Below, piece after piece: positions 4,755 through 57,500 of a stretch of 64,000 nt of DNA. Under the pieces are notes generated by a model. The model saw only the letters and a list, made by a program, of their open reading frames with translations, did no database searches and was not told the origin of the DNA. Both the position numbers and the translations under genes were made by a program. How positions within the stretch are numbered: the stretch's first letter is position 1; the number at the start of each line of letters is the position of its first letter. This DNA is from Cellulosilyticum sp. (GTDB lineage: Bacteria > Bacillota > Clostridia > Lachnospirales > Cellulosilyticaceae), in contig SVDC01000003.1 of assembly GCA_015058045.1 (NCBI GenBank), forward strand, positions 1 through 64,000, given 5' to 3'.

Positions 4755-4795
4755 GTCTTCACCTCCAATTCCTACCTCAACGCTCGGAATTATAT

Positions 4796-4829
4796 TTCCT
4801 AGCTTATCACTAGGAATTAATTTTGTCAA
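4796..4829 (-). promoter_or_regulatory. iscR promoter with palindromic operator candidate
   Basis: On the minus strand TTGACA (4824-4829) is followed 17 bases later by TAAGCT, preceded by TG, a weak extended -10. The inverted repeat TTCCTAG-N7-CTAGGAA (4796-4816) covers the spacer and -10, where a repressor would block polymerase. Binding by IscR is inferred. Confidence 0.55.
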
Positions 4830-4971
4830 TAACTAGATGAGATATACTTATTTTTGTCAAAATCTCTCACTAAATCTTATGTTCAATCCTTGATAAATTC
4901 TATATTTTTCTTATTAAAATCTTTTTTCTTTTTATTAACTCGTCCGTTTCTATTGTACAAATAAAGAGTTG

Positions 4972-4993
4972 TCTAAAGACAACTCTTTATCTG
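4972..4993. terminator. Hairpin AAAGAGTTGTC/GACAACTCTTT
   Basis: An 11-bp stem followed on the minus strand by TATTTG lies in the long gap between iscR and the glycohydrolase gene. It could end a minus-strand transcript from the candidate RNA at 5117-5246. The T-run is weak. Confidence 0.35.
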
Positions 4994-5116
4994 CATTCTA
5001 TTTGTCATGTCACTATCAAAATGTTATTAGAACGTATTTATATATGAAGTAGGTATGCATAGTTTAATATAATTTAGCATATATTTAATAATAATTAATA
5101 TAAATATATTGGTAAA

Positions 5117-5246
5117 TGAGCTTTAGACTTCATAATAATATATTCAGAAAATATACTACCATTAAGTGACTTCTACGTACCTTACCGGTTTCAAGTACGT
5201 TAGGGCAATCTTTTGTATAATTCAAAGTTGGGAAGTCCTAAGCTCA
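5117..5246. ncRNA. Candidate multi-helix structured RNA, strand unresolved
   Basis: No ORF explains this stretch. Two 15-base arms (5117-5131 and 5232-5246) pair with only two mismatches across about 100 bases. Inside them are a TATATT/AATATA hairpin (5139-5155), an ACGTAC/GTACGT hairpin with a 14-base loop (5175-5200) and a weaker CAA-CTTT/AAAGTTG hairpin (about 5206-5230). Together they form a closed multibranch layout. A second GACTTC at 5169-5174 could compete for the 3' arm. On the minus strand one mismatch becomes a G-U pair. It might belong to a known class such as raiA or 6S; I cannot assign one. Confidence 0.5.
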
Positions 5247-5269
5247 CTGTTTTAACTGAATAAATAAAA

Positions 5270-5325
5270 AAGGATTCTATCCTTCCCCAAAGGGGATACT
5301 ATACCATTTTAACTTCTTATGGTAT
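5270..5325. other. Row of three short hairpins
   Basis: AAGGAT-tct-ATCCTT, CCCC-aaa-GGGG and ATACCAT-N11-ATGGTAT follow one another directly. Read on the minus strand, the AAGGAT hairpin is followed by TTTTTTATTT, so the group could end a small minus-strand transcript. On the plus strand a T-rich run lies at about 5357-5370. No gene is associated with it. Confidence 0.35.
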
Positions 5326-5572
5326 ATACTATGCACCTTCTAAAGCATATGTGCTACTTTTTTTATTTTTAGGATATTTTTATTTAATTTGGATTCATTC
5401 TCCTTTTTCACTATATATTATGCCACTCCCAACTTTCATGTTATTTTTTTACGAAATTTTTTTCATTTCTTTTTTTATCTTCATCCTGCACATTAAATAT
5501 TTTATAAATATGTTCGCTTTAACAATATCTTATTGCTATACTAAATAATACCTTATAACATTTAATTTTGAT

Positions 5573-5614
5573 AAAAAAGGAAGCGGACATATACCTTATA
5601 CCGCTTCCTTTTTT
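5573..5614 (-). terminator. Terminator after the glycohydrolase gene (bidirectional form)
   Basis: A 14-bp stem AAAAAAGGAAGCGG/CCGCTTCCTTTTTT with a 14-base loop lies 37 bases past the stop codon. It probably ends the pan operon transcript too. Confidence 0.85.
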
Positions 5615-5651
5615 ATGTGCCCACTTTTCTTTCTATATAAGCAAGCTTGTT

Positions 5652-6713
5652 TTACCAAGCAGGATACTTTGTCAGCCATGCTTCTCCATCTTGATAAAAT
5701 GTTAATAAATCTGTTGCTAATTCTTTAATTTCTTTATGAAGCTCAACCCTCTCTGCTAGATCTGTTGGTATTTTATGAATACCTAAATAACCGCCCAGAA
5801 TACATCCAGTAATTCCACCTACGCTATCACTAGCTCCACTGTGATTAATACCTAAAAGAACACCTTTTAAATAATCCTGTGGATAAGACAAAGCAGCGTA
5901 AATTGCCATTGCTAATACTTCATGGGCATCCAAACCTTTACCTATTTGTTCTATCTTTTCTCTACTAGGGTTACCTTCCTGAACTAACTTAATAGCCAAA
6001 TCTATTTTTTCGATGACATCTTTGCTATTTTCTTCTTGACTAAGCTTGTCTCTTGCTGAATAAACTGCTTTCTCAATTTCTTGATCTTCTATGATTTCAT
6101 GAATAATATAAGCTAGTGTACCTGCAGATAAGTATGCCGTTGGATTACCATGGGTAATAGCTGCTAATCGAATAGCTATATCAAATACCCTTTCACTTTC
6201 TTCTACTAACCCTACAGGAACCACACGCATGACACAACCACATCCTAAGTTCTCACTAATAGGCTGATTTAATGTTCCCATAACACCTTTTCCTAATGTG
6301 GTTAAACAGGTTACGCCCGGATCTCTATACGCATGCATGCGAGATACTTTTACAAGCCATCCATCATAATCTTTTTTACTCCATCTAGCTGTTTGTAAGC
6401 CTTGAGTATAAAGCCACCTTAAATAAGCTCTAAATACAGTAATAGCTATGCCTTGTAACGTACGCTCTTTATTTTTTCTATGTGCTCTTGTTGCACTGCG
6501 TATCAGCCCCTCTGCAGTAAATAGCATAAGTTGTGTATCATCTGTAACTAACGCATGTTTATGACCTGGTGGAATAATATAGTCTGTAACGCCTGTCTCT
6601 CCTAAAATACCCATTACTTGTTCAAATCGCATAAACTCTATAGGTGCGCCTAAAGCATCCCCAATTGCTCCACCTAATAACGCCCCATAGAAATAAGGAA
6701 ATGCATGCTTCAT
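5652..6713 (-). CDS. ADP-ribosylglycohydrolase family protein
   Basis: The family (DraG/ARH type) removes ADP-ribose from proteins or small molecules using two Mg ions. Metal-site motifs are visible at both ends: GDALGAP with TDDTQL in the N-terminal part, and NHSGASDSVGGITG near residue 300. The 353-residue length is normal for an all-helical ARH fold. The ATG follows GGGAGG. It lies 114 bases after panD on the same strand with no terminator between, so it may be read with the pan operon. Its target is unknown, and no partner ADP-ribosyltransferase was seen in the window. Confidence 0.85.
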   Translation of the reverse strand: MKHAFPYFYGALLGGAIGDALGAPIEFMRFEQVMGILGETGVTDYIIPPGHKHALVTDDTQLMLFTAEGLIRSATRAHRKNKERTLQGIAITVFRAYLRWLYTQGLQTARWSKKDYDGWLVKVSRMHAYRDPGVTCLTTLGKGVMGTLNQPISENLGCGCVMRVVPVGLVEESERVFDIAIRLAAITHGNPTAYLSAGTLAYIIHEIIEDQEIEKAVYSARDKLSQEENSKDVIEKIDLAIKLVQEGNPSREKIEQIGKGLDAHEVLAMAIYAALSYPQDYLKGVLLGINHSGASDSVGGITGCILGGYLGIHKIPTDLAERVELHKEIKELATDLLTFYQDGEAWLTKYPAW

Positions 6714-21011: not shown

Positions 21012-21290
21012 AAAAAAACCTCATCCCGTTAACGGGACGAGGAATATTCCACGTGTTACCACCCATCTTGCTAAATTTACACAAATGTAAATTTAACCAC
21101 TCGCTAGGTTCTATCAAACCCTTGCCTATAACGGGGCTTCCGGATATTTCCTACGTAGTCATAAGGTGACCGTTCAGAAATTCTGCTCTAGAGCGAGCCG
21201 CTTTTGACCACAATGTTAGTTCTCAGCACCACTAACTCTCTGAAATTGCTACCGCAAAAGCTCTTCTCCTTCACTGCATTTTTTAATCAT
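21012..21290 (-). ncRNA. T-box leader of the ilv-leu operon
   Basis: The minus-strand RNA has an AGAGAG motif with a GTTAGT/ACTAAC capped stem, as in T-box Stem I. It also has an AT-rich hairpin (TAAATTTAC/GTAAATTTA) and the T-box-like TGGGTGGTAACACG. It ends in a terminator (21019-21042, CCTCGTCCCGTT/AACGGGATGAGG) followed by seven T. Uncharged tRNA would stabilise the antiterminator and let the operon be read. The specifier is not certain; a GTC (Val) triplet in CGGTCACC is one candidate by position. Confidence 0.88.
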
Positions 21291-35296: not shown

Positions 35297-35302
35297 ACAC
35301 AG

Positions 35303-35397
35303 TCGTCGATTACTTCCTACGTTGGCATTACCCAAATCAGGTTAAAGGGTCGAAGTTAGATGACTTCCTCTCAGCCTGCTTCACAAGCTCCCCTGTC
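35303..35397 (-). promoter_or_regulatory. TPP (THI-box) riboswitch aptamer
   Basis: The minus strand reads GGGGAGC, then GGCTGAGAGGAAG, GACCCTTTAACCTGATTTGG and GTAATGCCAACGTAGGAAG. These are the conserved blocks of the thiamine pyrophosphate aptamer. TPP binding is expected to favour the terminator just downstream. Confidence 0.97.
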
Positions 35398-35410
35398 ATA
35401 TTTTTTATTT

Positions 35411-54577: not shown

Positions 54578-57500
54578 TTAAAAATTAACATTTACACTAA
54601 ACCGTACCGTAGCTGTAGAATTAACAGGAACTCTTCCTACTAAAATACCACCTGTAGATGGCTCTGGACTTTTGTTAGTAGGACCAACACTTCCAACATA
54701 AGTTGAATTTGGTCTATATGTGGTTCTCTCTGGCAATATATCCGTAACAATAACATTCGTTAAATCAACATTACCTGTATTTCTAACGTAAACAGTGTAT
54801 TCTATAATTTTACTTGTTCCATCATTAACAATAATGGTTGTACTTGCATATTTCTCTACGATTAACTCTGGTTTAATAATTTCTACATTGGCAACATCAG
54901 ATGGTACATCTGTTTCTCTAACGATTGTTTGACCATTAAAATACGAGTAATCTACTAATGCTTGATTGCTTATTGTATCTGGTGCTGTACTTAAAACTGT
55001 TCCATTAAATGTAATAATACCAACTGCTCCAACCCCTAATGTTCCTAAACTAATGCCTGTAGCTAATGTAGGCTGAGGCGTTACTAAAACATTGTTCACC
55101 CTAATATTTGAAATAGACATATAACTTAGATCTGCACTCGTATCTCTTACCACTACATTTTCAATAGGCTCCGTTGAAAGATTGGTCACTGCAATACTAT
55201 ATTGTACTGTATCCCCTATGGCTGCATTAGTTGGTGTAACAACTTTATTAAACTGCACATTAATATCCTGAACATCAGTTGTTACTGTTGCTTTTTCTGG
55301 TGTTCCATTATATACAACACCATTAACATCTGTATAGGTATAACTTGCCAAATTGGCTGTATTTACTACATTTCCACTTACATCTTGCTTAATAGTAGCT
55401 GTAAATGTAAGCGTATATACATTATTAGGTGCACTATCCTTACTTGGAATGGTTCCAATACTATATCCTGTTGATAATGTAGCATAAGGTATAGGATTAG
55501 TACTATCATATGTTGTCTTAGAATCGATGATATCTTGAAGTACAACATTATCAATTGGAAGACTTGAGTTATTTCTAATCGTAACAGTATAGGTGAGTTG
55601 TTGCCCTTCAATGGCTTGTGAAAGATTTACTGTTTTGGTCAATAACACATCTATGACATCTGTTACGGCAGGGTCACTTGTATCACTAATGTTTCTTACA
55701 TCATCTGGATTAACTGTATATTGTGCCGTTCCTTTAGCCGTATTTTCAAAAGCGGCCCAAAGAATATTATTAATTGAAGCTCTAAATGTTATCATACTAC
55801 TTTCTCCTTCATTAATTTGTGAGATTAAAATACCGCTTGCTATAGAGCCTACAGGTGGCTGCCCATCTACCAAAACACTAGATTCATCTACTGTTAAACC
55901 CGGCGAAATATTGATATCATAAACATGAATATTGGTAAGTGGTATATCTCCTGTATTAGTCACTGTTATGGCATAGTTAATCAAATCGTTAGCTGTAACC
56001 ACAGCTGGTGTTGCAGATTTTTCGACAAGTATACCTGGTGTAACGGGCGTAACCGTAACAATATTACTTTGTTCTGTATAGGGAATAGGTTGTAAAAAAT
56101 ACGTGTAGGTTACTGCCCCTCTATCTTGGTAATTTGTAATCCCTGAAGTAGATGTCACTCTTAACCTAAACGTAACAACTATTGGCGTTGTACTAGAAGC
56201 TAAGGTTCCAAGCGATACACCTGTTACAATAGACGCACTAGTATCGGCAACTCCATCAATTGTGACACTACCTACAACAAATTCCATCCCTATTGGAATA
56301 GAATCTGTAACCACAACGTCTTCTGCTGCTGCCGTTCCCGTATTTATTATATTCAAAGTATAAAGTACCTCATCACCCAATACAGCCTGACTCACCGCAC
56401 TGCTTTTTACAATTTCTAAATTAGGTTCATTGGTATCAATTACAATCGCAGCTGCATTTAGCAAAACGCTTTCACTTGTGCTGGCTACACGCAAAGTTGC
56501 ACTTGTTTGTAGCGGATCTAAATGACTTGGTGGAATTTGAATATTAGTAATATCCCAACCTTGTCTTGCTGCACTTGTGCCTATATATGCAGTTCCTGAA
56601 GAGTTAAGCAAATGATTTCTATTACTAAATGTTCCAGTTGTTGTATTGAGTAATCCTTCATCATTATTAATTTGAGAAGCAAAAAAATTGCCTGCTAAGT
56701 TATTAGGCCCTGATAAAGGCTCTGTCAAATTAGCATTTCCCGTTGTAGCAAAAAAGACTTGGTCTCCTACTAGTGAATAATCCCCCTCAAATGCACTTAA
56801 TAGTAGTCGTGCCTCAATATCTGGGCTATTTGGCGTCACAAAATCAGTTAGTGTTTCTTCTGCAAAGGAAACATCAGATATTATAGGTACACCACCTACA
56901 TAGAGCGTTACACTTCTTAGTGGCTCTGTATTTCCTGTTAAATACCGATACACAACAGCTAAAGTCCATCCAGAACCTGCAAACCCATAGGCTTCATTAA
57001 TATCATTTGCGCTTAATATTGCAGGTACTCTACCCACAGTATAGCTACCACTACCTGCTTGAGCTACGTAATCTGTTACAATAGCTGACCTGGTATAAGC
57101 ATAAATTCCTAGATCATCTGACATACTATATTGCCCTTTTGTAGCCTCTATAGGTGTTATCTCTATAGGTATTTGCATCAAAGGTGTTTGAAATGTTATT
57201 GGATTATCTAGTCGATCTTCAATCGAGTTGTTCCCATATCTATAAGAACCACCCCATATGAGTTCAGCATAAACAACTTCTGTATCATTAGGTAAATTCA
57301 AAACAGCTTCTGAATTACTTGGAATATACATTGTATCTAGTGGTAAGTCACATGTTGTTCCATAGGGAAATGTTGTTCCACATCTACTTGTGGTATCAGT
57401 CGTAACAAAGGCTCCTCCTATATCAAATGTTCCAGCTACACGTTGGCCCGTTTGAAAAAAGTTATTTATCCTTCTAGATAGTGTTAAAACATTTCCAATA

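Follow-up and report, generated by a model that had tools for sequence, protein, structure and literature searches.

Genomic context of the element

The window analysed here, a stretch of 64,000 nucleotides of Cellulosilyticum sp. (contig SVDC01000003.1, positions 1 to 64,000), contains a gap that is bounded by iscR (minus strand; start near 4755) and by an ADP-ribosylglycohydrolase gene (minus strand; end at 5652). The initial annotation described this gap as a gene-free stretch of nearly 900 bases, and the description is accurate: the sole open reading frame of at least 60 amino acids between the flanking genes is an A+T-rich run of 65 amino acids that is unconvincing as a gene. Two inverted repeats lie near the borders. 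The one at 5571-5616, flanked on both sides by A/T runs, is likely to be a bidirectional terminator of the ADP-ribosylglycohydrolase gene, and a weak match to Termite-leu arises from it. The other is situated at the boundary between the RNA gene described below and iscR, outside the RNA (Table 1), and relatives have hairpin-like repeats at the equivalent position. The two 15-base arms that first drew attention to the gap (TGAGCTTTAGACTTC and GAAGTCCTAAGCTCA, 100 nucleotides apart) were found again and pair at 13 of 15 positions, though when the gap was shuffled with its dinucleotides preserved, arms at least as good arose in 22 of 60 cases, so that the pairing in this single sequence is no better than chance. 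The case for an RNA is thus made below with its homologues.

Table 1. Features of the predicted RNA gene and its boundary, in window coordinates
Feature	Position	Strand	Basis or conservation
Inverted repeat, terminator-like	4958..4993	.	Self-match on the opposite strand
-35 element GCATA, sigma-E-type promoter	5057..5061	+	Same kind of box in 15/15 homologues
-10 element CATATATT	5078..5085	+	[CA]ATATNNN in 15/15 homologues
Predicted noncoding transcript, ~275 nt	5092..5366	+	5' end deduced from the -10 box and 3' end from the terminator; homology over 5049-5383 across the genus
P1 closing helix, 5' arm	5117..5131	+	Covariation across 15 homologues
P2 hairpin (5139-5144 pairs with 5150-5155)	5139..5155	+	Conserved, nearly unvarying
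Conserved single-stranded junction CUACC...GUGACU	5156..5171	+	Near invariant
P3 hairpin, conserved ACCGGU-type loop (5184-5189)	5172..5204	+	Covariation
Conserved single-stranded segment GCAAUCUUUUG	5205..5215	+	AUCUUUKG nearly invariant in five genera
P1 closing helix, 3' arm	5232..5246	+	Covariation across 15 homologues
Invariant unpaired 3' element AAAGGGGATACTATACCATTTTA	5289..5311	+	13/15 homologues
Terminator-like hairpin GCAC/GUGC, then U run	5333..5366	+	Sequence

Homologues and secondary structure

The block at 5049-5383 was found in all seven Cellulosilyticum genomes, over most of its length in six and as the core only in one. A covariance model built from the RNA core (R1) and searched against 24 Cellulosilyticaceae genomes gave matches in 15 of them, which belong to five genera, with E values from 1e-38 to 2e-5; the weakest homologue reached E = 7e-13 under a refined model. 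The RNA is present as a single copy per genome.

Covariation was assessed in a hand alignment of the 15 homologues against a null made of 60 replicates that redistribute the substitutions over the tree. The covariation among homologues that the initial annotation had proposed as a check is present in P1, with a summed score of 53.7 (null mean -0.7, sd 8.7, maximum 17.2), and in P3, with a score of 84.1 (null mean 2.6, sd 6.0, maximum 23.3), both far above the tree-aware null. P2 varies too little to exceed the null. In P3, 97% of the cells are paired, compared with 68% in the null, a fraction that is inflated towards the structure because the alignment was fitted to it by hand. The ACGUAC/GUACGU stem of P3 is replaced by CACAC/GUGUG, CUCCUU/AAGGAG, CCCCUAA/UUAGGGG, CUCCUCA/UGAGGAG or CCUUUAAG/CUUAAUGG in homologues, which are compensatory changes, and the pair formed by alignment columns 62 and 75 is seen as GC, AU, UA and CG, that is, as all four Watson-Crick types. 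Only one pair passes E < 0.05 individually, which is unsurprising for 15 sequences.

The three smaller hairpins that had been proposed within the arms thus fared differently: P3 is strongly supported by the homologues and P2 is conserved, if hardly varying, while a small hairpin near 5206-5217 is unsupported. The junction strand CUACC...GUGACUUCU is near invariant among homologues, and there is a weak indication that it forms a pseudoknot with the P3 loop (partner permutation, p = 0.022). It had also been supposed that a second GACTTC copy, which does exist at 5169-5174, could compete for the 3' arm and make the RNA a switch. The competing GACTTC/GAAGTC pairing is complete solely in the window sequence: ACTTCT is invariant, and the 3' arm reads TTAAC, TTAGG, AAAGA, TTATC and so on elsewhere. 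A conserved switch is therefore unsupported. Taken as a whole, the comparison indicates that the element is almost certainly a conserved structured RNA.

Extent of the transcript and the 3' element

The multi-helix RNA of the initial annotation persists as a noncoding RNA in a gene-free gap, but its extent is revised from a core of 130 bases to the predicted transcript in Table 1, to which a sigma-E-type promoter on the plus strand, a conserved 3' element and a terminator are added. Among the homologues, the six closest Cellulosilyticum ones retain the U run of the terminator, which is harder to make out in other genera. The 3' element AAAGGGGATACTMTACCATTTTA is kept 28-46 nucleotides after P1 in 13 of the 15 homologues.

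This element permits another view of the RNA, in which it would be a base-pairing small RNA whose function resides in the unpaired 3' element as an antisense seed, the core being only a stabilising domain. An invariant unpaired stretch of some 20 bases is what such a seed would offer. However, the two carriers that lack the 3' element retain the core, conservation of the core junctions reaches further than that of the element, and no recurrent complement of it with at most three mismatches was found in seven Cellulosilyticum genomes, nor was a second copy of it found in them. An antisense seed is thus conceivable but rather unlikely.

A predicted sigma-E promoter

In all 15 homologues, the -10 box is preceded, at a distance of exactly 16 nucleotides, by a TCATA/GCATA-type box, which reads GTCTA in one of them, while the surrounding sequence varies; the leave-one-out score of the promoter is at least 15.1 in 14 of the 15. 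Sigma-E is the mother-cell factor that runs early spore formation. Its consensus in B. subtilis has been given as TYATATTT and KCATANANTN, and a study comparing Epulopiscium with C. lentocellum lists the Epulopiscium sigma-E promoters of spoIIIA (TAATGATT/GCATATACTG) and spoIVA (TCATATCC/ACATATAGTT), which have the same boxes as the RNA promoter (PMC3416734).

A matrix made from the RNA promoters only was applied upstream of spoIIIAA and spoIVA. In 19 of 20 genomes, the matrix locates a site 44-74 nucleotides before spoIIIAA (shuffle p no higher than 0.05). Nearly all of the 20 (L087-L106) have there, at a single position, the sequence GTTCTA-N16-GCATATATT or one close to it. Likewise, a site was found before spoIVA in all 11 genomes (p at most 0.035), with a spacer of 15 or 16, that is, of 15 in some genomes, and with scores below those at the RNA. 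The spoIIIA promoters of two family genomes without the RNA (G010 and G011) are identical to the Epulopiscium boxes; since they match letter for letter, these two are probably Epulopiscium-like genomes. Upstream of spoIVA (L076-L086), between the sigma-E-like site and the start of the gene, lies a ATGTACCCATACA block that is strongly conserved and may represent a further promoter or a site for a regulator. A genome-wide scan with the promoter pattern gave 35 matches versus 17 for the reversed control, with no visible enrichment for sporulation genes. Because the layout of -35 box, 16-base spacer and -10 box is the same as that of the spoIIIAA promoters of the family, transcription by sigma-E is strongly suggested, and we regard it as likely on the strength of these motifs.

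The same structured RNA gene might instead be transcribed in vegetative cells by sigma-A or another factor, with the sigma-E likeness incidental to a conserved, A+T-rich upstream region. That region is indeed very rich in A+T and some of the -10 boxes contain TATAAT-like words; moreover, among structured RNAs with a sporulation phenotype the best known, raiA/ModT, has a sigma-A promoter, and its deletion affects sporulation (PMC11706538). On the other hand, a TTGACA-like -35 box is absent at the right spacing, whereas sigma-E is matched by the unvarying spacer and by the TCATATTT/KCATATANT boxes, both of which are seen again at spoIIIAA and spoIVA. Vegetative transcription is accordingly an unlikely account of the promoter, and control by sigma-E is retained as the prediction.

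Strand and coding potential

The count of variable pairs (16 G-U versus 22 A-C) does not decide the strand of the RNA, which is assigned to the plus strand because of the orientation of the promoter and the terminator. A contrary assignment would make the element a cis-acting leader on the minus strand, upstream of iscR-iscS-iscU and regulating these iron-sulfur genes. It accords with the position of the element upstream of iscR at every locus inspected and with the fold z-score of 5090-5375, which is better on the minus strand (-3.40) than on the plus strand (-1.96). However, terminator-like inverted repeats are placed between the element and iscR, two other genes intervene at L021 and L026, and the promoter and the U-run terminator point the opposite way, which together render a minus-strand leader very improbable.

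A decayed coding gene, the outcome that the initial annotation named as its own refutation, is contradicted by the homologues: no reading frame is conserved across them, their longest stop-free runs are of unequal length and lie in different frames, and a small open reading frame, which in the window extends for 17 codons from an ATG in P1, is broken in relatives. Although the 3' element might serve as a site in the DNA, any reading of the locus as a decayed gene, DNA-level repeat or binding site rather than an RNA is scarcely credible given the compensatory changes in P1 and P3 across five genera, the lack of a common open frame and the single copy per genome.

Distribution and genomic neighborhood

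A second covariance model (R2) was run with stricter filters on samples of 392 genomes of the order and 391 of the class. In the Lachnospirales sample it matched only the same family, besides two chance hairpins (L038 and L039), weak matches in unrelated places of other Lachnospirales that were rejected; in the Clostridia sample, only the genome of the window itself matched. The RNA is therefore likely, but not proven, to be absent outside Cellulosilyticaceae, because these searches covered samples with stricter filters. A weak model match of 29.6 bits after a thiC-like gene in Sporanaerobium (L028, 1501-1629, minus strand) has a long hairpin and a part that resembles the P3 region; it is probably a terminator and doubtful as a homologue.

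At L019 and L025, the RNA is followed by a DUF2225-like gene on its own strand; in most other genomes, the gene that follows is glycosidase-like and lies on the opposite strand. Nine of the 24 family genomes have no detectable copy of the RNA, and the regions upstream of iscR in five non-carriers contain nothing similar, not even a divergent copy. All nine possess spoIVA, which is present in 22 of the 24 genomes; thus, the RNA is not essential to sporulation, and any role that it has would be accessory or lineage-specific.

Proposed role of the RNA

These observations lead us to propose, as the likely explanation of the whole, an independent plus-strand gene (approximately 5092-5366) for a noncoding RNA that is controlled by sigma-E and has a partner-binding fold. 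In this model, sigma-E would transcribe the RNA in the mother cell from the promoter at 5057-5085, and helices P1 to P3 would lock the strands of the invariant junction into one shape that a partner recognises, in all likelihood a protein and otherwise a target mRNA; the 3' element would be a candidate pairing or binding site. Most likely, then, the RNA would act in trans in the mother cell, binding a protein or an mRNA through the junction and possibly through the 3' element as well.

To our knowledge, few noncoding RNAs under mother-cell sporulation factors have been recognised, and fewer still with a function. The RNA described here occurs in five genera as a single copy, with strong covariation and a clear predicted promoter. 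On account of its conservation, predicted promoter and single copy, a deletion could be made and examined in a spore former that can be grown in culture, and the many family members that carry it provide a natural comparison with the Epulopiscium-like non-carriers.

Comparison with known RNAs

No Rfam 15 family matches the region at the gathering threshold, and loose thresholds gave nothing relevant, the weak matches being terminator hairpins or below-threshold chance. This agrees with the initial annotation in that the RNA is not a T-box, TPP, tRNA or SRP form. Elsewhere in the window, a T-box leader (21030-21283, minus strand) and a TPP riboswitch (35297-35404, minus strand) score above the Rfam gathering level. 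Among the papers searched, none deals with both Cellulosilyticum and noncoding RNA, and an RNA survey of 50 genomes does not mention the genus. As far as these searches reach, the RNA has not been described previously; it comes from a spore-forming, gut-type bacterium and is predicted to function like a sporulation-controlled noncoding RNA, outside raiA, 6S and any curated family. A riboswitch or leader was rejected since no same-direction gene follows in most genomes: the downstream gene is convergent in the window and in most relatives, the two DUF2225-like loci being the only exceptions.

The other identities suggested for the element, raiA and 6S, are not borne out. The raiA model (RF03072) matched nothing at E <= 5 in the region and nothing genome-wide, where the positive control likewise gave no match. 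Like raiA/ModT, a highly structured, stand-alone noncoding RNA of approximately 200-260 nucleotides in spore-forming Clostridia (PMC11706538), the gap RNA is a gene of its own, but raiA/ModT, which has as many as eight helices plus two pseudoknots (PMC11751092), is known from more than 2,500 species and has a sigma-A promoter, whereas the gap RNA has three core helices, sigma-E-like boxes with a 16-nucleotide spacer in 15 of 15 homologues, and a range of one bacterial family. The 6S model (RF00013) had no match in the region either. Two ordinary 6S genes lie in tandem elsewhere in the genome (G000:C34:56236-56443 and 56480-56700; 60 and 57 bits; approximately 36 nucleotides apart), and therefore the gap RNA is not the 6S RNA of this genome. 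Both are structured RNAs, 6S being a regulatory one whose 6S-1 form influences when B. subtilis begins to sporulate (PMC9147052); 6S, however, is a long hairpin with a central bubble, while the core of the gap RNA is a three-helix junction.

The sporulation RNAs of Bacillus include CsfG and Bvs196 (sigma-F/G), SurC (sigma-K) and the yocG-yocH intergenic RNA (sigma-E) (PMC9147052). All of these come from another class of bacteria. CsfG and Bvs196 are forespore RNAs, whereas the gap RNA, which has no Rfam match, is predicted to belong to the mother cell, as does sigma-E; with the yocG-yocH RNA it is compared here by sigma factor and intergenic location. With these RNAs it shares an intergenic location and predicted control by a sporulation sigma factor, and Bvs196, at 294 nucleotides, is of similar length (PMC9147052).
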